Shown: positions 1,449 through 11,684 of the stretch, piece after piece
Numbering within the stretch: the stretch's first letter is position 1
Layout: each line of letters begins with the position of its first letter
NCBI GenBank assembly: GCA_020345785.1
Contig: CP070771.1
Coordinates: 6,278,887 to 6,294,043, forward strand
DNA length: 15,157 nt
Origin: Desulfobacterales bacterium
Lineage (GTDB): Bacteria; Desulfobacterota; Desulfobacteria; Desulfobacterales; JAFDCJ01
Reading direction: 5' to 3'
The notes under the pieces: model-generated
What the model saw: only the letters and a program-made list of their open reading frames with translations
Told to the model about the DNA's origin: nothing
Databases searched by the model: none
Position numbers and translations under genes: made by a program

Positions 1449-1593
1449 AGAAACGGTTTCAGAAGTTCAGATTATGTTCGAGAGCAAGGCGTTCCGCGAA
1501 TCTAAAGCGGAGCGTACACGCTAGTACGTGAGCATTTAAATTCGCGGAACAACGCAGCTATCGGACATAAGATGAGTTTATGAAGCCGTTTCT
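1449..1593. repeat. Long nested-hairpin dispersed element, copy 1
   Basis: Three nested stems surround a constant core. Outer stem: 1449-1461 with 1581-1593 (13 pairs, one G.T). Middle stem: 1473-1484 with 1558-1569 (10 Watson-Crick plus one G.T of 12). Inner stem: 1491-1501 with 1540-1550 (11 perfect pairs). The core 1504-1537 is identical (34/34) to 9350-9383 of copy 2 and carries its own CGTAC...GTACG hairpin. Short constant segments CAAGGC (1485-1490) and AACGCAG (1551-1557) flank the inner stem in both copies. The element ends 2 nt before the stop codon of permease C (minus strand), so it would lie in the 3' untranslated part of that message. Confidence 0.88.
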
Positions 1594-1595
1594 CA

Positions 1596-2501
1596 TCAGC
1601 GTCTTCTGAGCTTGGGATCAAACGCATCCCTCAGCGCATCACCGATCAGATTCCACGCCAGCACAAACAGCACAATGCACCCGCCGGGAATCACAATGGC
1701 AAACCAGAATTTTAGTGGCTCCCCCGGGGGCCCCACGATATAGTTACGGGCCAGGGCTACCATCTGTCCCCAGTCGGCAAAGCCTTTCGGTGCCCCCAAT
1801 CCTACAAAACTCATAAATGATGCCGTAATCACCATGGAACCCATATCCATGGATGCCATGATCAGCACCGGATAAATGGCGTTGGGAATGATGTGACGTA
1901 AAATAATTTTTGCTTCCGAGACTCCCATAATTTTGGCGGCGTGCACATAATCCTGATCGCGCAGGGTGAGTATTTCCGAGCGGATGACCCGCACGTACCA
2001 GCGCCACTGCACCATCGCCAGGGCGATCATAATTTTGTCCAGACCCCTGCCAAAGGCAACAACGATGGCCATAGCCAGGACCAGCGTCGGTATGGCCCAC
2101 ATGACATCCGTAATGCGCATCAAGATTTCATCGATGATTCCGCCAAAATAACCCGAAACCGCACCAAGGGTCACCCCCACCAGGCCGGCAATGATCACCA
2201 CAAAAAGGCCGATTTTAAAAGCCGTCCGGGTGCCCCAGATAACACCGTAAAAAATGTCGTACTGGCCCGAGGTCGTGCCGAAGATGTGTTTGGGGCCCGG
2301 GGGCTTGGGCGTCGGGGAAAACCCCTTGTGGGGCATCAGATACGGATTGTGGGCGTATTTCGGCGGAGCGATCTGGGGCGCGAAAACGGCAACCGTCGTA
2401 AAAACCAGCAGCAGTGAAAACCCGATGATCGCCGAAGGATTCCGAAAAATCCGATACAGCGTAAATTTAAACTCGCGCAGTCGAGGATGGGGTTGGACCA
2501 T
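1596..2501 (-). CDS. Dpp/Opp-type ABC transporter permease (DppC/OppC-like)
   Basis: This is an inner-membrane subunit forming half of the translocation channel of the peptide importer. The 301-aa length is typical of DppC. Seen: a short cytoplasmic N-terminus with the OppC_N pattern (FRNPSAIIG, 20-27), a first membrane helix at about 22-42, a periplasmic loop with GTTSGQYDIFYGVIWGTR (75-92), further helices at about 95-118, 130-150, 155-170, 208-230 and 268-290, and the EAA loop that docks on the ATPase at about 185-206 (YVHAAKIMGVSEAKIILRHI). The start gives the expected N-terminus, but no good Shine-Dalgarno sequence precedes it and an in-frame stop lies about 13 codons upstream. It lies 214 bp downstream of the permease B gene, with repeat arms in between. 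Confidence 0.94.
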   Translation of the reverse strand: MVQPHPRLREFKFTLYRIFRNPSAIIGFSLLLVFTTVAVFAPQIAPPKYAHNPYLMPHKGFSPTPKPPGPKHIFGTTSGQYDIFYGVIWGTRTAFKIGLFVVIIAGLVGVTLGAVSGYFGGIIDEILMRITDVMWAIPTLVLAMAIVVAFGRGLDKIMIALAMVQWRWYVRVIRSEILTLRDQDYVHAAKIMGVSEAKIILRHIIPNAIYPVLIMASMDMGSMVITASFMSFVGLGAPKGFADWGQMVALARNYIVGPPGEPLKFWFAIVIPGGCIVLFVLAWNLIGDALRDAFDPKLRRR

Positions 2502-2570: not shown

Positions 2571-2721
2571 TTGAATATTGAAGATTGAAGATTGATTAAT
2601 TGTGGCATCCTATCATTTTTATTTTACGGGCTGCGTCACATTTTCTGTCTTTACCTGCCATCTAAAAAATCGATAGGATTCCTTAATTCGACATTCTTCA
2701 ATCGTCATTCGTCATTCAACT
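2571..2721. repeat. Heptad repeats in inverted arms around a palindromic centre (B/C gap)
   Basis: The left arm 2571-2598 is four exact 7-bp steps of the TTGAAGA type. The right arm 2687-2721 is five 7-bp steps of the complementary type (TTCGACA, TTCTTCA, ATCGTCA, TTCGTCA, TTCAACT). The arms are therefore inverted relative to each other. Inside them ATCCTATC (2607-2614) and GATAGGAT (2672-2679) form a perfect 8-bp inverted pair. The right arm runs into the stop codon of the permease B gene (2716-2718). Function unknown. Confidence 0.72.
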
Positions 2722-3747
2722 AAGTCGTATCCTCGGGTCGATATATGCATACAGAATATCCAAGGTCAGGTTGGTGATCACAAACACCACGCCCATGAAA
2801 AGACAGATACACATTAGCACCGGAATGTCCAGCTGCACCGCTGATTCCGCCAGCCACCAGCCGATGCCGTGGCGGTTGTAAACAACCTCCACTGCGATAC
2901 TGCCCTCCATGGACATCGCCATCAGTTGGCCGGCAACGGTTATCACCGGCAGCAAGGCATTGCGGCGGGCATGGTTAATATGAATCGTTTTCTTATCCGC
3001 CCCCTTGGCCCGGGCCGTTATCACATAGTCTTTGGACAGCTCCTCTATCATCCCCGAACGCATCACCCGCATATTCAGGGCCACTACCACGATCACATAA
3101 GTCAATATCGGACAAACAAGATGGGCAAGGGCATCCAGCGTAATATTGAAATGACCGTTCAAAATTCCGTCGATCGTGTAAAGACCTGTGTAGCTGGTGT
3201 ATTCATCCGGATTATCAATAATGAACATACTCAACTGATCACTCAGGACCCCCGGAGAGAGTATTTGAAAGTATCCGTAAAACACCATGAGCAGCACCAG
3301 GGCGAAAAGAAACGTGGGCAGCGACCATCCCACGATGGCCAGAATCCGGGTGGTGTGATCAATCCACTTGTCCCGATGGATTCCCGAAAGCGTTCCCAGC
3401 CAGATACCAAAGAACAGCACGATGGGCGCTGCAAATAGATTCATTTCCAGAGTGACGGGAAAATATGTCCAAAAGGCTTCCCAAACCGGGCGGGAAGCCA
3501 CCACCGACCAGCCCAGGTTGCCCCGAAATACTTCTCGCATCCAGCGCACATACTGGATGTAAAATGGATCGTCGAGCCCGAACTGCTTGATGATTTTGGG
3601 GATGTCCTTAGCCTGCTGGGGGGAGCTGATGAATGCAGCCGCCCGTCTTTCCGGACTGAACGTCATCAAAATGGCGAAGATGAGCACGGATACGCCGAAA
3701 AGCACGAGTATCAGCAGCAGGAATCTTCTGGTGATGAATGCAAGCAT
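2716..3747 (-). CDS. Dpp/Opp-type ABC transporter permease (DppB/OppB-like)
   Basis: This is the second inner-membrane channel subunit of the importer, 343 aa, close to DppB length (about 340). Seen: N-terminal helix 8-30 preceded by the typical FITRRFL; the periplasmic FGLDDPFYIQYVRWMREVFRGNLGWS segment (56-81) characteristic of DppB/OppB N-termini; helices at about 101-123, 135-158, 208-226, 265-285 and 311-333; the EAA loop at about 239-261 (KDYVITARAKGADKKTIHIN); and the conserved C-terminal YAYIDPRIR (333-341). The start gives the standard N-terminus, but no clear Shine-Dalgarno sequence is visible just upstream. It follows the binding-protein gene by 389 bp of repeat-rich DNA. Confidence 0.95.
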   Translation of the reverse strand: MLAFITRRFLLLILVLFGVSVLIFAILMTFSPERRAAAFISSPQQAKDIPKIIKQFGLDDPFYIQYVRWMREVFRGNLGWSVVASRPVWEAFWTYFPVTLEMNLFAAPIVLFFGIWLGTLSGIHRDKWIDHTTRILAIVGWSLPTFLFALVLLMVFYGYFQILSPGVLSDQLSMFIIDNPDEYTSYTGLYTIDGILNGHFNITLDALAHLVCPILTYVIVVVALNMRVMRSGMIEELSKDYVITARAKGADKKTIHINHARRNALLPVITVAGQLMAMSMEGSIAVEVVYNRHGIGWWLAESAVQLDIPVLMCICLFMGVVFVITNLTLDILYAYIDPRIRLS

Positions 3748-4136
3748 AGAGGTTGTATGATGAGTTATCTTGTTAAAGGTTTCAGGTTTCTGGTGTCAGC
3801 GCCTTCGCTGGCCGCAGGTTCAGGGTATGAGGGTTCAGAGGTTCTGGGTTCTGGGTTCATAGGTTCTGCTTTGTTTTTTAACCCCCGGCATGAGTTAATG
3901 GATGAAACGACGGCATCCAGAGGCTGCTTTTTAACCGAAGCCACAAGCAACCTTGGGCTTATCTGTACGGCCATAAACCATAACGGCGAGAGCCTTGAAT
4001 CAACATTTAAGGTTGAGTGCAAACCTCAACCTTTGAACCTTTGAACCCTGAACTCTGAACCCTTATACTCTGAACCCCAGAACCCAGAACCCAGAATCCT
4101 GAACCCCAGAACCCTGAACCTCTGACCCTGAACCCC
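3748..4136. other. 389-bp gap between binding-protein and permease B genes
   Basis: No convincing gene lies here. The gap holds the G-rich heptad arm (3817-3866), a central unique stretch of about 168 bp, and the C-rich heptad arm (4035-4133) that ends 3 bp before the binding-protein stop codon. A small perfect hairpin CAGCG-CCTT-CGCTG lies at 3797-3810. Open frames across the central part carry the low-complexity translation expected of repeats and were not called. Confidence 0.7.
3817..4133. repeat. GGTTCTG/CAGAACC heptad arrays in inverted arms (A/B gap)
   Basis: The left arm (3817-3866) has GTTC or GTAT at 3818, 3825, 3833, 3841, 3848, 3855 and 3863, that is, 7-8 bp spacing. The right arm (4035-4133) has about 13 units of GAACCCT/GAACCCA type with the same spacing. 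The arms are complementary: 3840-3854 matches the reverse complement of 4077-4091 exactly over 15 bp, and the match extends further with a one-base bulge. The right arm directly follows the stop codon of the binding-protein gene (minus strand). The arms could form a long hairpin in the operon transcript. Confidence 0.8.
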
Positions 4137-5879
4137 CTATTGCTTATACAATCGTTTCAGAATTTCATTGTCATCGGTAAACATGGCATTGGGAACGAAA
4201 CCATGTACGTAATCCCGGTAGGCTCTGACCACAATCTGCTGATATAACGGAACACCGATGGCATCCTCGTACCAGATACTCTGAAGCCTGGCATAAATCT
4301 CGCGGCGTTTTTGAGGGTCGGCCGTGCCGATGCCGGCATCACACAGTTTATCGATCTCATCGTTTTTAAGAGCCATATATTTTCCATAGTAGCCGTTGGA
4401 ATGCATAAAGGGGTAGACAAAGTTGTGCGGATCGGCATAATCGGCCCCCCAGCCGCTCAAAAACAGCGGATACTGAAAGCTGCGAATTTGAACGACATAG
4501 TCTTTCCACTCGACATTACGGACCTCAATCCGGAATTTGGGATTAAGCGACATAATATTTTCGGCCAGCATGTGGGCGGCGGCCTCCCGCATTTCATTGC
4601 CGGTGTTGTGGGTGACGATCATCTCGAAACCCATCTCCCAGACCTTGCCGCCGAAAGCTTTTTTCATGTATTCGGCCGCTTTTTCGAGATTGAATTCATA
4701 CACCGGAACCTCGATGTGATAGGGCAGTCCTTCCACATTCGGACTGCTGGGCATAATCACAAGGCCATTGAAGACATCCTGTTTGTAGGTTTCACGATCA
4801 AACGCGTGCAAAAAAGCCTTGCGCACATTAATATCCGCAAAAAAATCAGGCGGAATACCTTTGCCGTCCAGCCGGCCGCTGCCGATGTTCGGGTTGCCGG
4901 TGGGATTGATATTGCGGCAAAACATGGCCGCCGTGTAACCCAGCTGGGGAACCTCGTAAAGCTTCAACCCTTGCATGGCTTTGACTTCCGGAACATAGGG
5001 TGTATCCACCACCACCCGGTCGGCATCGCCGTTTTGCAGCATCAGCTTACGGGTGCTCCATTCTTTCACGTACTTGACGATGGCGGTTTTGATCTTAGGG
5101 GGGCCGCCCCAGTAGCCGTCAAAGCGCTCGAAGACAAACTGCTTGGCGGGTTCCCAGCTTTTCATCCTGTAAGGTCCGGTACCGTTTTCAATTTTCTGCA
5201 GCGGCTCGTGTCCAGGTGCAGGATTGCTGTATTTGGCGGCGTTATTAATGTTTCCATCCCAGCAGCCCTTGGATATCGCCCATTCTTTGTTCAGAATGGA
5301 TGAAGCCGTGTAGCACAAAATACTCATCAGCGGCGGATACGGTTTGGGCAGGTGCAAAATGACCTGATCGCCTCGGGCTTCAACCGTTTTGTCAATGATT
5401 TCAAATATGCCGGGAATGATCTTTCCGTCACCGTCGCGGGTGGAACCGTTGCCGGTCAACGCCTCCAGCAGCATCCACATGGGGCCGCCGTCCTGATCGA
5501 CGATCATGTTGCGCTTGAAGGAGTACACCACATCCTCGGGAGTTAAATCTTGACCCTCGTGGAACTTGACTCCTTTGCGAATGGTGAAGGTATAGGTTTT
5601 TCCGTCGGCGGAAATCCCGCCGTTGGCCACGGACGGTACTTCGGCGGCGATCAGGGGCACATAGGTTTCGGTGGAAGATCCGTCAAAAAAGATCAATGTT
5701 TCATACATGTTCCAGATCCGCATGGAGCCGGCCACATCATACGAGGCGGCCGGATCAATGGTCTGGACCGTGCGATAGTCGGCCATTACAAACGTATCGG
5801 GATTTTTGACCTGCGCCCCTGTATTCGCGGCACAGATCAGCATCAACAAACAACCGATAAGGCAGATGTGTTTTTTCAT
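4137..5879 (-). CDS. Dpp/Opp-type ABC transporter substrate-binding protein (family 5)
   Basis: This is the periplasmic solute receptor that delivers a peptide-like substrate to the B/C/D/F importer. The 580-aa product starts with a signal peptide (KK, hydrophobic stretch about 5-18, likely cleavage near ANTGA|Q at 19-23). No convincing lipobox is present, since Cys10 and Cys16 sit in poor contexts. The family 5 signature is clear at about 93-123 (TYTFTIRKGVKFHEG...LTPEDVVYSFKR), followed by the usual NGTGPYRMKSWEP and C-terminal AYRDYVHGFVPN segments. Length is slightly above the usual 530-545 aa. A strong AAGGAGG (complement of 5884-5890) supports the start. It is the first gene of the importer operon. 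The substrate cannot be read from the sequence; di/oligopeptides are the default expectation. Confidence 0.95.
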   Translation of the reverse strand: MKKHICLIGCLLMLICAANTGAQVKNPDTFVMADYRTVQTIDPAASYDVAGSMRIWNMYETLIFFDGSSTETYVPLIAAEVPSVANGGISADGKTYTFTIRKGVKFHEGQDLTPEDVVYSFKRNMIVDQDGGPMWMLLEALTGNGSTRDGDGKIIPGIFEIIDKTVEARGDQVILHLPKPYPPLMSILCYTASSILNKEWAISKGCWDGNINNAAKYSNPAPGHEPLQKIENGTGPYRMKSWEPAKQFVFERFDGYWGGPPKIKTAIVKYVKEWSTRKLMLQNGDADRVVVDTPYVPEVKAMQGLKLYEVPQLGYTAAMFCRNINPTGNPNIGSGRLDGKGIPPDFFADINVRKAFLHAFDRETYKQDVFNGLVIMPSSPNVEGLPYHIEVPVYEFNLEKAAEYMKKAFGGKVWEMGFEMIVTHNTGNEMREAAAHMLAENIMSLNPKFRIEVRNVEWKDYVVQIRSFQYPLFLSGWGADYADPHNFVYPFMHSNGYYGKYMALKNDEIDKLCDAGIGTADPQKRREIYARLQSIWYEDAIGVPLYQQIVVRAYRDYVHGFVPNAMFTDDNEILKRLYKQ

Positions 5880-7282: not shown

Positions 7283-8447
7283 AGTCGTGCTATTTCTAAC
7301 TGGAATTCTTGCTCTTACCGTCGGAGCTCACTTGCTTTTTTTCAAAGCGGTGACACGCCTTTTTATCATTAACAGTACCGGCCTCAAAATCTCATTATTG
7401 GTCGTCCTGTTTCTGCTGTCGCTCAGCTTTATGGCATCCTTTTTCCTGCTGCGCTGGCAGGCAAATTTGCTGACCGTCTGCTTTTATAAGTTCAGCGCCG
7501 TCTGGACCGGTTTGTTTATTAACCTTCTGTTGGCGGCGCTGCTTAGCTGGCTGATCATCGTCATTGTCGGGCTGGCCGGAACCTATCCCAATACCCGACT
7601 CATTGCTGCCGGTTGTTTGATGCTGGCTGTTTTATTTTCAGCTTACGGCATGTGGAATGCTTTTCACCCCAGGATAAAAAAGCTGCATATCGAACTTGAT
7701 AATCTTCCGGACCAATGGAAAGGCAAGACCGTCGTGCAGCTATCCGACGTTCATCTGGGCCATTTTTACGGACCGAGATTTCTCAAAGACCTCGTCCGGC
7801 GCGTCAACTCGCTCAATCCGGAGCTTATTCTCATTACGGGGGATTTATTTGACGGCATGGCCTCGGATATCTCCCGCTTTGCCGACGGGCTGAGTCAGTT
7901 TAAAGCCGAAAAGGGCGTCCACTTTATTACCGGCAACCATGAGACGTATATCGGTGTTAACCGGGCGTTAAATGTCCTGGGACAAACCCGGATAAACATT
8001 TTGCAAAATGAAGTGATCGACATCGATGGGCTGCAAATCATCGGCATCAGCTATCCGGGAATAAAAGAAGTCGGTCAGATTCAAGGACGAGAAAAATTAT
8101 CGCAAGATTCCTCAGACAGCAAACCCCGTATATTGCTTTTTCACACGCCCACAAACATTGATCACGGAAGGGGCGATGGGATGGATCGCCACTTTTCCAC
8201 CTACTGGCTTCCCGATACCTCATTTCTCCCGGCCCAAAAACTGGGAGTTGACTTGCAGCTTTCCGGCCACACTCATGCCGGCCAGATTTTTCCCTTCGGC
8301 CATCTGACCAGGCTCCTTTACAAAAACTATGATTACGGACTTCGTGGTCGCGGCAATTTCTCGATCTACACCACCAGCGGGGTCGGTACCTGGGGTCCCC
8401 CCATACGGACGGGGAATTCACCCGAGATTTTAGCAATAATCTTTTAA
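7272..8447 (+). CDS. Membrane-anchored metallophosphoesterase (YkuE/YaeI-like)
   Basis: The 391-aa product has about four N-terminal membrane helices (roughly 5-30, 38-60, 72-100, 106-126) followed by a calcineurin-like phosphoesterase domain. All metal-binding blocks are present: SDVHLGH (158-164), GDLFD (190-194), GNHE (221-224), LLFHTP with His291, and SGHTHAGQ (331-338). The domain order matches the YkuE/YaeI group, some members of which hydrolyse lipid-linked pyrophosphates, such as UDP-diacylglucosamine in the LpxG branch. A lipid-linked substrate is plausible from the membrane domain but is an inference. The start ATG lies inside the 3' end of the hydrolase gene (11-bp overlap), which suggests translational coupling. 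Confidence 0.92.
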   Translation: MVLKVVLFLTGILALTVGAHLLFFKAVTRLFIINSTGLKISLLVVLFLLSLSFMASFFLLRWQANLLTVCFYKFSAVWTGLFINLLLAALLSWLIIVIVGLAGTYPNTRLIAAGCLMLAVLFSAYGMWNAFHPRIKKLHIELDNLPDQWKGKTVVQLSDVHLGHFYGPRFLKDLVRRVNSLNPELILITGDLFDGMASDISRFADGLSQFKAEKGVHFITGNHETYIGVNRALNVLGQTRINILQNEVIDIDGLQIIGISYPGIKEVGQIQGREKLSQDSSDSKPRILLFHTPTNIDHGRGDGMDRHFSTYWLPDTSFLPAQKLGVDLQLSGHTHAGQIFPFGHLTRLLYKNYDYGLRGRGNFSIYTTSGVGTWGPPIRTGNSPEILAIIF

Positions 8448-9251: not shown

Positions 9252-9286
9252 GTCCAATGTCCGTTGTCATTTGTCCGTGGTCTAAT
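9252..9286. repeat. GTCCGTT-type heptad repeat, 5 x 7 bp
   Basis: Five exact 7-bp steps, GTCCAAT, GTCCGTT, GTCATTT, GTCCGTG and GTCTAAT, start 10 bp after the cupin stop codon. The sequence differs from the other heptad arrays in the window, but the period is the same. Confidence 0.65.
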
Positions 9287-9295
9287 ACACTGTTT

Positions 9296-9438
9296 AACTT
9301 GCATTTAAACCCTTAGATTTTGGCCGCGGACAAGGCGTGATTCGATTTAAAAGCGGAGCGTACACGCTAGTACGTGAGCATTTTGAATCGGATCACAACG
9401 CAGGACGCGGTCAAAAGATGATGGTTTAAATGCAAGTT
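9296..9438. repeat. Long nested-hairpin dispersed element, copy 2
   Basis: The outer stem 9296-9311 with 9423-9438 is 16 perfect pairs. The middle stem is 9318-9330 with 9404-9416 (10 Watson-Crick plus one G.T in the outer 11). The inner stem is 9337-9347 with 9386-9396 (11 pairs, one G.T). The 34-nt core 9350-9383 is identical to that of copy 1 (1504-1537), and CAAGGC (9331-9336) and AACGCAG (9397-9403) are conserved at the same places. All three stems differ in sequence from copy 1 but still pair. The element lies between the convergent cupin and mltD genes and its last base is the first base of the mltD stop codon complement, so it could act as a two-way terminator or 3'-end protector. Confidence 0.9.
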
Positions 9439-11684
9439 TAGACGTTTTTTTCTACTATTGGGATAAGTAGCTTCTGAGAAGGAATCAAGGCACCAAAATC
9501 AACATCGGCATTATAGCGTTTTAACAGCCACAGCGGCACCTCAAACTCCTGACGTGAAAGGGTCCAGATATTGTCTCCCCTTTTGATGGAATAGGTAAGG
9601 ACCTTCTCAACACGATAGGTGGCAAAGAAGTCTTCAGCCAACTCCTGATGAAATTCGAAGCGTTTTTCTTCAAATTCCTCCTTGGTGACCCGATCCAGGG
9701 GGATCTTTATTTGCTGGCTCAGATGCAGCGGCCGACCGTAACTGAATCCGTTAAGCCGTCTGATTACCTGGACCGGCACCTGCAGCCACTCAGCATAGTG
9801 TCCCAGCGTCTCTTCCGCCTCCACTTGAATGACGCCGATTATCTTCCCTTCCGATTGCAAAACCCTTTCCACCGCGAAATGGCCCTGCATGATTTCCGGA
9901 TTCAATGGCTGCTTATCAGCATCCGGATTTGCCTCCATGGCATCGCCGTCGATGTCGGCAAGCGCAGCTGTAAATTCAGGATCACCCTGCGCCTGTTCTT
10001 CTTCAGGCTCTTGAATTTGGGCCGGAGGCAAATTATTTTGAACCGGAAATTTCGAAACGGCTCCCTGGGTGAACAAAAACGCCGCCGTCTGATTTGCCTG
10101 CGGCGGATTTTTGATTGGTCCGCGTTCAGTGGCCGCTGCCGGAATATTTTCTTCTGAGGCCTGCGTATCGCTCATGGCGAGCATTCCGGTTATTTGATCA
10201 TCAGCGGGATGCTCCAGAATTTGATCCGTATGATCCTCGGATTGTTTAGCGGGGGAAGTCGGTTGCGGATTCGACGTTTGAAGCAATGCTTCGGGAGCTT
10301 CTTGGCTCCTCTTCTCAAGTCGCGCCACCACGATGGGCTTTTCATCCGGCAACGGAATTCTTAAGGTCTGGTTGACGTAAATCGTGGCCCGCCGATCCAG
10401 GTTGTTGACGGCAATTAAATCGCCGAGTTCGACCCCGTGTATTTTTGCAATTTTTCCGGCCGTATCTCCCCTGCGAACCGTGTAAATTTGACTGCGCTTC
10501 TGATTTTGCCGGTAGATATCCGGCGGCAACTGAGCAATTAACTGCTCCCAATCCCTGTCGTCTCCATCCGGCAGCCGCAGCCGATAACCGCCGGGCACAT
10601 ATTTTTGCCCGCTGAATACCGGACTTCGCAGGGCCGGATTCAATTCGCGCAGTTCGGCGAGATCAATAGTTAAATGTTGCGCAAGTTGAGGCAATGCCAC
10701 ATAGCCGGCCAGCACGATTTCACGGCTTCTGGAGGGCGGATCCAGCTTCAGGTCGCCAAAATATTGACGATAATTTTTGGCAGCCTCACGGGCGGCTATA
10801 AACTCGGAATAAAAATTGCGGGAGGCAAATTTAAAAATCCGGCTGCGATATTCCTTAAAAATCCGTTCGTAGCTGCCCTTTCTGCGCACAGCCCGCAGCA
10901 TCCCGCTCGTGCCGTGGTTATAGGCAGTGATGGCCAAGGGCCATGATTGTAATTTCTGATAATTAGCGTGCAGCAATTTGGCGGCAGCGCGGGATGAAAG
11001 TATCGGATCTCTCCGTTCATCAATGGTGTAGCCGATTTCCATGAAACGCCTGCCGGTGGAGCGGGTGAACTGCCACATCCCGGCGGCGCCAAATTTACTG
11101 TAAGCCTTCGGGTTAAAAGAAGACTCCACATGCGGCAGATACGCCAGATCTTCCGGCAGACCGGCATCGCGGAAAATCTGTTTGATGGCTTCAATATAAG
11201 CGCCCGAACGAACAAGACCCGCTTGGAAACGATCTTTTTGCCCCACCTGACAGCGAATATTATACATGGCCGAACGAAAATCCGCCGCCTTGGCATCCGA
11301 ACCAAAAAGGTCCGCCACCTTTTGCTCCTCAGGTCCCGATGGTGGTTCACCCCGCATGAGTTTTGCCAGGATCGCTTTGAATTTCTTTTTGGCATTTTTG
11401 ATCCGCCGCTGGTTTATCTTGCGGCCGCCGGCGCGGTCGGGGTCTTCAAGTTCAATGCTGCCGTAAATGATATCCAGCCGGCGGTTGTCATGGAGAACAC
11501 CGTAATCGGAAGTATATTGTGTGTATATTTGGGTCCAGAAAGAGACGTTGGGTTGAATGCCAGGATAGACCGGAAAGAGGCCGGATTCAGCCCCGACATC
11601 CGCACTGTAGGATGGGCCTGCAACAGCAACCGCCAGGCCGACAACAACGAGAATTCGTTTCCACTTCAAACGGGTAAAGAGCAA
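9438..11684 (-). CDS. mltD: MltD-type membrane-bound lytic murein transglycosylase with LysM repeats
   Basis: This secreted enzyme cleaves peptidoglycan glycan strands non-hydrolytically, leaving 1,6-anhydro ends. In the 748-aa product: signal peptide 1-28 (KWKR, hydrophobic 11-22, cleavage near SYSA|D); SLT domain about 160-310 with catalytic Glu187 in LPHVESSFNPKAYSKFGAAGMWQFT and the AYNHG motif (254-258); an MltD-like segment to about 370; a first LysM at 400-444 (YTVRRGDTAGKIAKIHGV); a divergent LysM at about 614-663; and a third at 697-743. An acidic, Pro/Gln-rich linker of about 150 residues (455-605) separates the first LysM from the other two, which makes the protein much longer than E. 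coli MltD (about 450 aa). The start is TTG, supported by GAGGTGAT (complement of 11688-11695) with 7-nt spacing; a nearby ATG at 11687-11689 is out of frame. A sigma-54-like promoter lies upstream. Confidence 0.93.
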   Translation of the reverse strand: MLFTRLKWKRILVVVGLAVAVAGPSYSADVGAESGLFPVYPGIQPNVSFWTQIYTQYTSDYGVLHDNRRLDIIYGSIELEDPDRAGGRKINQRRIKNAKKKFKAILAKLMRGEPPSGPEEQKVADLFGSDAKAADFRSAMYNIRCQVGQKDRFQAGLVRSGAYIEAIKQIFRDAGLPEDLAYLPHVESSFNPKAYSKFGAAGMWQFTRSTGRRFMEIGYTIDERRDPILSSRAAAKLLHANYQKLQSWPLAITAYNHGTSGMLRAVRRKGSYERIFKEYRSRIFKFASRNFYSEFIAAREAAKNYRQYFGDLKLDPPSRSREIVLAGYVALPQLAQHLTIDLAELRELNPALRSPVFSGQKYVPGGYRLRLPDGDDRDWEQLIAQLPPDIYRQNQKRSQIYTVRRGDTAGKIAKIHGVELGDLIAVNNLDRRATIYVNQTLRIPLPDEKPIVVARLEKRSQEAPEALLQTSNPQPTSPAKQSEDHTDQILEHPADDQITGMLAMSDTQASEENIPAAATERGPIKNPPQANQTAAFLFTQGAVSKFPVQNNLPPAQIQEPEEEQAQGDPEFTAALADIDGDAMEANPDADKQPLNPEIMQGHFAVERVLQSEGKIIGVIQVEAEETLGHYAEWLQVPVQVIRRLNGFSYGRPLHLSQQIKIPLDRVTKEEFEEKRFEFHQELAEDFFATYRVEKVLTYSIKRGDNIWTLSRQEFEVPLWLLKRYNADVDFGALIPSQKLLIPIVEKNV

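Follow-up and report, generated by a model that had tools for sequence, protein, structure and literature searches.

A dispersed nested-hairpin element with a strand-specific fold and an ERIC-like layout, found at gene ends in Desulfobacterota

Two nested hairpins in Desulfobacterales DNA are quite probably members of a divergent branch of the ERIC-type miniature mobile elements, with a fold that is specific to one strand. Both lie in a window of 15,157 nucleotides, the whole stretch of DNA that was analysed. Their parts, and the genes that they abut, are:

1449..1593, + strand: copy 1 of the nested-hairpin element, compact form (fold z -11.3; model R1)
1504..1537, + strand: core of copy 1, 34 nt (GCGGAGCGTAC-loop-GTACGTGAGCA)
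1486..1491, + strand: left loop motif AAGGCG in copy 1
1550..1556, + strand: right loop motif CAACGCA in copy 1
1596..1598, - strand: TGA stop of the facing permease gene, 2 nt past the end of copy 1
1596..2501, - strand: host gene of copy 1, ABC transporter permease (PF00528, PF12911)
9296..9438, + strand: copy 2 of the nested-hairpin element, compact form (fold z -12.7; model R1)
9350..9383, + strand: core of copy 2, 34 nt
9332..9337, + strand: left loop motif AAGGCG in copy 2
9396..9402, + strand: right loop motif CAACGCA in copy 2
9438..9440, - strand: TAA stop of the gene facing copy 2, its last base being the end base of the element
9438..11684, - strand: host gene of copy 2, SLT/LysM protein (PF01464, PF01476)

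Copies, fold and covariation

Copies 1 and 2 are identical at 98 of 145 aligned positions. The initial annotation described a shared 34-nt core, which we found to be identical at 1504-1537 and 9350-9383; constant segments CAAGGC, AACGCAG and AAGATGA, which are present in both copies; and three paired stems, for which RNAfold gives 13 outer pairs in copy 1 and 16 in copy 2, followed by the nested stems. A 27-nt piece of the core, with up to three mismatches allowed, had two matches in the window against 0.00 expected. As RNA, the + strand folds at -72.4 kcal/mol (copy 1) and -76.5 kcal/mol (copy 2), against means of -33.6 and -32.3 for shuffled sequences (z of -11.3 and -12.7), and none of 200 shuffles folded equally well. 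The opposite strand is weaker, at -60.2 and -53.6 kcal/mol, because an imperfect pair is usually G.U on the + strand and hence A.C on the other. The covariance model R1, which was built partly from these same two copies, scores them at 147.7 bits (copy 1, 1448-1594) and 139.6 bits (copy 2, 9294-9440). No Rfam family reached its gathering threshold anywhere in the window, and in 16 other loci Rfam gave three riboswitch or 6S matches, none at the element.

Other features of the window were also recorded. A weak Rfam match to DUF3800-XI at 8379-8423 (23.9 bits, gathering threshold 37.8, E 0.09) is probably due to chance. A run of seven T lies on the + strand at 9445-9451, 6 nt past copy 2 and within the end of the LysM gene; together with the hairpin it could terminate transcripts arriving from the left, and it was not called terminator-like. 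In the ABC transporter operon, which runs along the - strand (ORFs 4-1176, 1596-2501, 2716-3747 and 4137-5879), every gap is occupied by a distinct repeat, at 1248-1342, 2572-2714 and 3815-4130; these comprise units of about 16 nt (GAGCGCTnCGCT), a 49-nt inverted repeat, and direct and inverted repeats of the GGTTCTGGGTTC type.

Searching relatives with the core, as the initial annotation had proposed, revealed a dispersed family. G001, a Deltaproteobacteria MAG related to the window, has 56 exact-core places, against 0 for a reversed-pattern control; they represent 55 distinct copies, one copy at a contig end being the same as another in its flanks. The exact core was found in 3 of 297 genomes drawn from the phylum of G001, G001 included. 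The core pattern GGAGCGTAC-N(2-20)-GTACGTGAGC, searched in one genome per species, matched at least 119 stretches, some tens of chance matches being expected by our estimate for a collection this large (L132 looks like one), and it was also matched in 21 viral contigs. Among the matches listed, many have flanking stems able to pair, as judged by eye. By record title, the hosts are Alphaproteobacteria (chiefly Mesorhizobium), Nitrospirota, Desulfobacterota, Enterobacteriaceae, Rickettsia, Paenibacillus, Listeria and others. With a Mesorhizobium copy as query, phage records gave no match and the plasmid search gave 35 records. R1 had 102 matches in G001 and 22, 15, 12, 7, 5, 2 and 0 in seven kin (the eight genomes being the family of G001), with some places counted on both strands. 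It matched 51 of the 55 loci on which it was run, leaving L010 and all three Paenibacillus loci in that set (L025, L040 and L116) unmatched. The complement of true copies also scores 54-58 bits with R1, so that an R1 score alone proves neither kinship nor strand, part of it being earned by shape. The distribution of the family is patchy.

In a longer variant, one arm or both are extended by an insert (GGGCCCACC...GGGTTATCCAGC; CCCCGC...GCGGGATGAC):

G001 L056, L148, L158, L163, L177, L181, L186, L190: right-arm extra stretch
G001 L146, L163, L169, L177; G010 L230: left-arm extra stretch

The two halves of such an insert look able to pair with each other; it may be an added layer of a modular design or a second repeat nested in the element. 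On one G001 contig (C377; L182, L231), two elements in opposite orientation, at 123-271 and 327-473, lie about 56 nt apart, the second at the stop of the LysM relative.

Covariation was assessed in two sets of copies. The first, alignment A1, holds 45 compact copies (2 from the window, 43 from G001) out of 57; the 12 left out comprise 11 excluded by a script rule (ten with arm inserts, and L154, which is compact and was missed) and one cut by a contig end. Since the A1 copies were chosen by the exact core, and the script rule required AACG, the invariance of core and AACG within A1 proves nothing. The RNAalifold structure of A1 has 56 pairs, of which 41 are changed on both sides. Pairing is kept in 95.3% of 2520 cells, against 75.4% after shuffling within columns, and both-side changes occupy 506 cells, against 133 when shuffled and 61-154 with slid partners; none of 500 shuffles reached the observed count. 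The second set comprises 26 loci (24 distinct) taken from the best of 63 R1 matches in the seven kin, LysM-site loci included. They come from G005, G007, G008, G009 and G010, played no part in building R1, and were selected neither by core nor by loop pattern; their alignment was fitted to the structure. In these 24 copies, 92.0% of cells are paired against 70.2% when shuffled, with 295 both-side changes against 87. Their most constant parts are the loops [AG]AGGC and AACG, each in 23 of 24 copies, each full core half being present in 16 of 24.

The same turnover can be followed at a single site. The copies after the same LysM gene in G001 and G007 are identical at 130 of 146 positions, compared with a mean identity of 70%, and at most 76%, to 42 other G001 copies. 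Most simply, the two LysM-site copies would descend from one insertion. Read on the G001 fold, the changes from G001 to G007 turn four pairs, on both sides, into other Watson-Crick pairs and four, on one side, into G.U; none becomes A.C and two are broken, while on the G007 fold one change is A.C. Stem turnover with pairing kept occurs in place. The proposal of the initial annotation that the fold is conserved while the stems turn over, for which two copies alone were insufficient, is thus strongly supported by the covariation in 45 and 24 copies, and neither conservation of stem sequence nor a lack of covariation was found. A decaying repeat was rejected on the 95% pairing together with the in-place compensation.

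The fold of one strand only is kept, in that wobbles on this strand are G.U and not A.C. When the arms of 56 copies from G001 and the window were aligned blind to strand, isolated oppositions on the + strand were G.T in 132 cases and A.C in 32, and the + strand was the more stable RNA in 54 of the 56. Pairs with variation in both partners gave 101 G.U against 18 A.C, with 38 copies leaning to G.U and two the opposite way. The bias recurs in the kin (55 against 8), in 19 viral-contig copies (42 against 7) and in a set of 59 copies, mostly from Alphaproteobacteria (120 against 26), which includes one locus from a Nitrospirota MAG (L082), the taxon sets having been grouped by hand from record titles. 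It is slight in 16 copies from Nitrospirota and others (17 against 13), a set that contains L102 (Peptococcaceae) and L114 (Syntrophales), and absent from 12 Paenibacillus and Listeria copies (15 against 15) and four Rickettsiales copies (3 against 3). ERIC gave 9 against 5, readable in 8 of 30 loci. Moreover, G.A oppositions in tandem occur on the + strand only, as GGA/GA in the core and AGA/AGA between the outer and middle stems. A process acting solely on duplex DNA should prefer no strand, and we therefore infer a single-stranded acting form, either RNA or DNA.

Placement at stop codons and mobility

In 31 of 57 copies the element ends, on its right, at the stop codon of an opposite-strand gene (gap of -4 to +3, with crude gene calling). 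Five further copies have the stop at 46-47 nt, which is the size of the right-arm insert that those five carry, and one of the 57 lies inside a crude ORF. The two ends were compared using open frames of at least 120 codons and copies with 450 nt on both sides. A stop was found at the right end in 25 of 45 copies from G001 and the window and at the left end in none of 45; the corresponding counts were 28 of 50 and 6 of 50 in the mostly alphaproteobacterial set, and 16 of 22 and 0 of 20 in the kin (Fisher values of 5e-10, 5e-6 and 5e-7, calculated on copies that are not independent). The stops used, TAA/TAG/TGA, number 17/7/1 in G001 and the window and 11/6/11 in the alphaproteobacterial set. 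At TAA and TAG sites, TA forms the first two bases of the stop and the first base of the element, a purine, completes it. The TA of the TAA stop at 9438..9440 is likely to be the insertion target of copy 2. TA is absent from the ends of copy 1, which comes after a TGA, and neither window copy shows a readable duplication. TA is near both ends in 24 of 45 Desulfobacterota copies, with chance TA in 36 of 90 flank windows. The left neighbour runs along the + strand in 18 of the 57 copies, against it in 33, and is undefined in six.

The element is mobile, as seen from its presence and absence in kin and from the insertion of a sister repeat in E. coli. The initial annotation, right about fold conservation, missed both this mobility and the one-orientation placement at stop codons. 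Copy 1 is absent after the same TGA in G009 and G010 (92% protein identity), and likewise in G001, over the 330 nt examined after the stop; the DNA after the stop at these empty sites is unrelated, so that no target duplication can be read there. One Mesorhizobium gene is followed by a copy in G012, and in none of the four other genomes searched (220 nt examined). An element lies directly after the LysM stop in the window, G001, G005, G007 and G010, and none was found after that stop in G009 and G011. The stems at this site differ among genomes; G010 keeps the gene-side outer stem of the window copy, the other arm being replaced by an insert.

A sister repeat of 147 nt with the same core type and size was reached in E. 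coli through a Klebsiella copy. It lies between hemE and nfi in strain 7/2 (NZ_CP023820.1 near 4550550-4550670, L387) and not in K-12, the filled site reading CACCGC-TA-[145 nt]-TA-AGGAG and the empty one CACCGC-TA-AGGAG, a difference of 147 nt. The TA of the hemE stop was duplicated on insertion, or was lost again by exact removal. By analogy with this sister element, the Desulfobacterota copies may likewise have duplicated TA. The hemE insertion is present in 294 of the 5370 E. coli genomes with the region (at least 80% of the filled form covered), and in 37 other listed genomes the match falls into two pieces, with 354 instead of 501 bases. The repeat occupies a median of five places per E. 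coli genome. Five sites were read: hemE-nfi, glnA-glnL, pheM-pheS, pyrH-frr and ucpA-cysP. At all of these except hemE, the closest stop upstream of the repeat is 42-94 nt away; at pheM-pheS, glnA-glnL and pyrH-frr the GGAGC strand is within the message. The sister repeat differs from the window element in its orientation at three of five sites, and also in its loop letters. No name for it was found in the literature searched, including PMC10888264; RU-3 of E. coli was considered and, by the part of its description available to us (PMC2759123), has a different sequence.

With the gene side fixed, the message of the host gene carries the complement of the favoured strand. This antisense relation between the favoured strand and the gene next to it is the main puzzle, and a role in the mRNA does not predict it. 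This bears on a reading in which the element is host-owned, a regulatory or stabilising hairpin of the 3' UTR that is selected on the message and is not mainly mobile. One-orientation placement at stop codons suits such a hairpin, as does its recurrence after the LysM gene in the window and in G001, G005, G007 and G010. A capsid gene (PF05065), which we take from the size of its contigs to be probably of the gene-transfer-agent type, was traced through viral contigs (the best 80 of at least 598), and the core comes immediately after its stop in 8 of 79, again in agreement with a 3' UTR role. By eye, many capsid stops in these contigs (L307-L386) are directly followed by unrelated palindromes. 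It seems that any strong hairpin is welcome after the capsid stop and that the strand bias belongs to the element. Against selection on the message stand the greater stability of the antisense strand in seven of the eight capsid-gene copies, the wobbles that favour the antisense strand, the varying presence among close kin and the restriction of the hemE insertion to a minority of E. coli genomes. We regard a host-owned 3' UTR element as somewhat unlikely.

Likeness to ERIC and to other dispersed repeats

The initial annotation offered no named family that would fit; ERIC, also called IRU or RU-1 and hosted by Enterobacteriaceae and Vibrionaceae, has the same layout. De Gregorio and colleagues reportedly found in 2005 that the ERICs of Yersinia duplicate TA and that those adjacent to stops lie in one orientation. 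The latter arrangement is seen here as 25 of 45 against 0 of 45. A 2007 review, in the part available to us, gives ERIC a length of 127 bp with TA at the ends, and states that how elements like ERIC move has no experimental support (PMC2229807). In Yersinia, ERIC inserts at the 3' ends of genes and affects mRNA decay via an RNase E site, according to the accessible part of a further paper (PMC10969869).

The ERIC consensus that we used (about 127 bp) matches E. coli at up to 93.7% and has 51 matching pieces in a Klebsiella genome. It gave no BLAST match at copy 1 or copy 2. Its loop motifs AAGGCG and CAACGCA are present in the window copies, and AAGGCG, GGAGC, GTGA and CAACGCA follow in the same order, with spacings of 25/17/24 in ERIC and 23/19/22 in the window. 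Both have a nested hairpin and a GGAGC-NTAC-loop-GTAN-GTGA core. The window core has GTAC/GTAC where ERIC has TTAC/GTAA, and its outer stem is not the TATACCC of ERIC. One kin copy, in G010, has GGAGCTTAC; the ERIC core reads GGAGC-TTAC-N4-GTAA-GTGAC. The 5-mers of the two loop motifs are found in 5 of 7 and 6 of 7 core-intact ERIC copies, against 6% and 8% of background windows. Applied to 30 ERIC loci, R1 matched three, L207 at 40.7, L221 at 38.0 and L219 at 31.8 bits (L219 on the unexpected strand), and on 35 loci with other palindromes after the capsid gene its best score was 12.2 bits. In Klebsiella, 4 of the 30 ERIC copies, L207 and L221 included, have the stop of a long gene no more than 3 nt from the matching end; at the other end of the same copies one stop lies within 3 nt and two more at 4-5 nt. 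Placement at stop codons is far commoner in the window family than in ERIC.

The likeness to ERIC could also be convergent, the same machinery mobilising or reading both elements without common descent. The lack of BLAST similarity and of an R1 match at the ERIC copy in 27 of 30 loci would agree with this, and among the alphaproteobacterial relatives the left AGGC motif of the AAGGC loop is rare (7 of 45 copies; a more relaxed version of the right motif occurs in 35 of 45). Convergence does not readily account for four motifs in the same order at such similar spacings, and we consider it unlikely.

Other repeats and structures resemble the window element less. YPAL, or RU-2, of Yersinia is also a palindromic miniature and targets sites near dyad symmetry; it is unlike the window element in its length of 168 bp, its duplications of 3-26 bp and its lack of TA ends, as the available part of the 2007 review has it (PMC2229807). 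The same source gives the RPEs of Rickettsia as palindromes of 105-146 bp. Many RPEs are in frame within genes, whereas window-family copies come after stops, and RPE membership was rejected on the finding that 1 of 57 copies lies within a crude ORF; the exact core is also present in Rickettsia contigs. REP/REPIN sequences, described in the accessible text of PMC3733652 as 20-40 bp long with GTAG or CGTC tags, are likewise dispersed extragenic palindromes. The window element, about 145 nt long with nested stems, loops and a strand-specific fold, is not a tagged palindrome of that kind, and membership was rejected. Also rejected were CIR, the element being one nested hairpin and not two arms joined by a linker, and an intrinsic terminator of the abutting gene, there being no T run on the sense side of that gene and none called. 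An integron attC site and a group II intron domain were weighed by their general layout. In the literature searched (titles and the starts of abstracts, with subscription journals mostly outside), we found no paper describing the family or linking ERIC to other phyla, and among the matches listed for a search with the letters of the core none was, by title, on such repeats.

The acting strand and a proposed mechanism

The strand bias and the tandem G.A oppositions, found only on the GGAGC strand, would also be expected of a small RNA gene or an antisense RNA made from that strand, with the abutting gene as its target or partner. The GGAGC strand is in the message at three of the five E. coli sites, and copy 2 has a promoter-like site just to its left (+ strand, 9264-9291) and the seven T of 9445-9451 after it, all of which would suit such a transcript. 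Promoter-like sites are, however, at the level of shuffled sequence (1 against 0.7 for copy 2, 0 against 0.6 for copy 1), no terminator-like site was called, no Rfam family was found, and the left neighbour runs along the + strand in 18 of 57 copies and against it in 33. We hold a small RNA to be improbable. Arm-to-arm correction by DNA template switching is known in E. coli and could, in an imperfect palindrome, keep the pairing without selection, in agreement with arms that are near-perfect complements within each copy while copies differ, but such copying alone gives no reason for G.U to outnumber A.C on one strand and it would erase the unequal loops [AG]AGGC and AACG, each kept in 23 of 24 copies, which makes it very improbable.

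Our preferred reading is an ERIC-type mobile element. Each hairpin would be one copy of a miniature mobile palindrome of about 145 nt, inserted at TA, with duplication of the TA, by a putative enzyme supplied in trans. Where that TA belongs to a TAA or TAG stop, the purine with which the element begins would restore the stop and the protein would be left unharmed; at stops a single orientation is observed. The strand with GGAGC...GTGAGC and the loops AAGGCG and CAACGCA would have to fold while single-stranded, as RNA or as single-stranded DNA. The observed pairing and strand bias could then be due to such folding, a presumed agent that would keep the stems paired while their letters drift. Once inserted, the element would place a long hairpin where the 3' UTR of the abutting gene begins and, by analogy with ERIC, might influence the upstream message. 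From these comparisons we infer movement in trans, an acting form that is a folded single strand, such an influence on the host message, and common descent with ERIC.

A broader proposal, which we put forward as doubtful, is that ERIC could form one ancient superfamily of non-coding mobile elements with those described here from Desulfobacterota, Alphaproteobacteria and E. coli, and perhaps also with those from Nitrospirota and further phyla. Its members would move as a folded GGAGC strand, RNA or single-stranded DNA, and would enter gene ends at stops in a fixed orientation by sensing the gene end or the transcribed strand.

Placement at stop codons and the antisense bias of the fold are two facts that any mechanism must explain. 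ERIC is linked, by motifs and layout, to elements of distant bacteria that show strong covariation with a strand bias. Moreover, since the hemE insertion is present in 294 of 5370 genomes and the site is empty elsewhere, the mobiliser can be sought by strain comparison.
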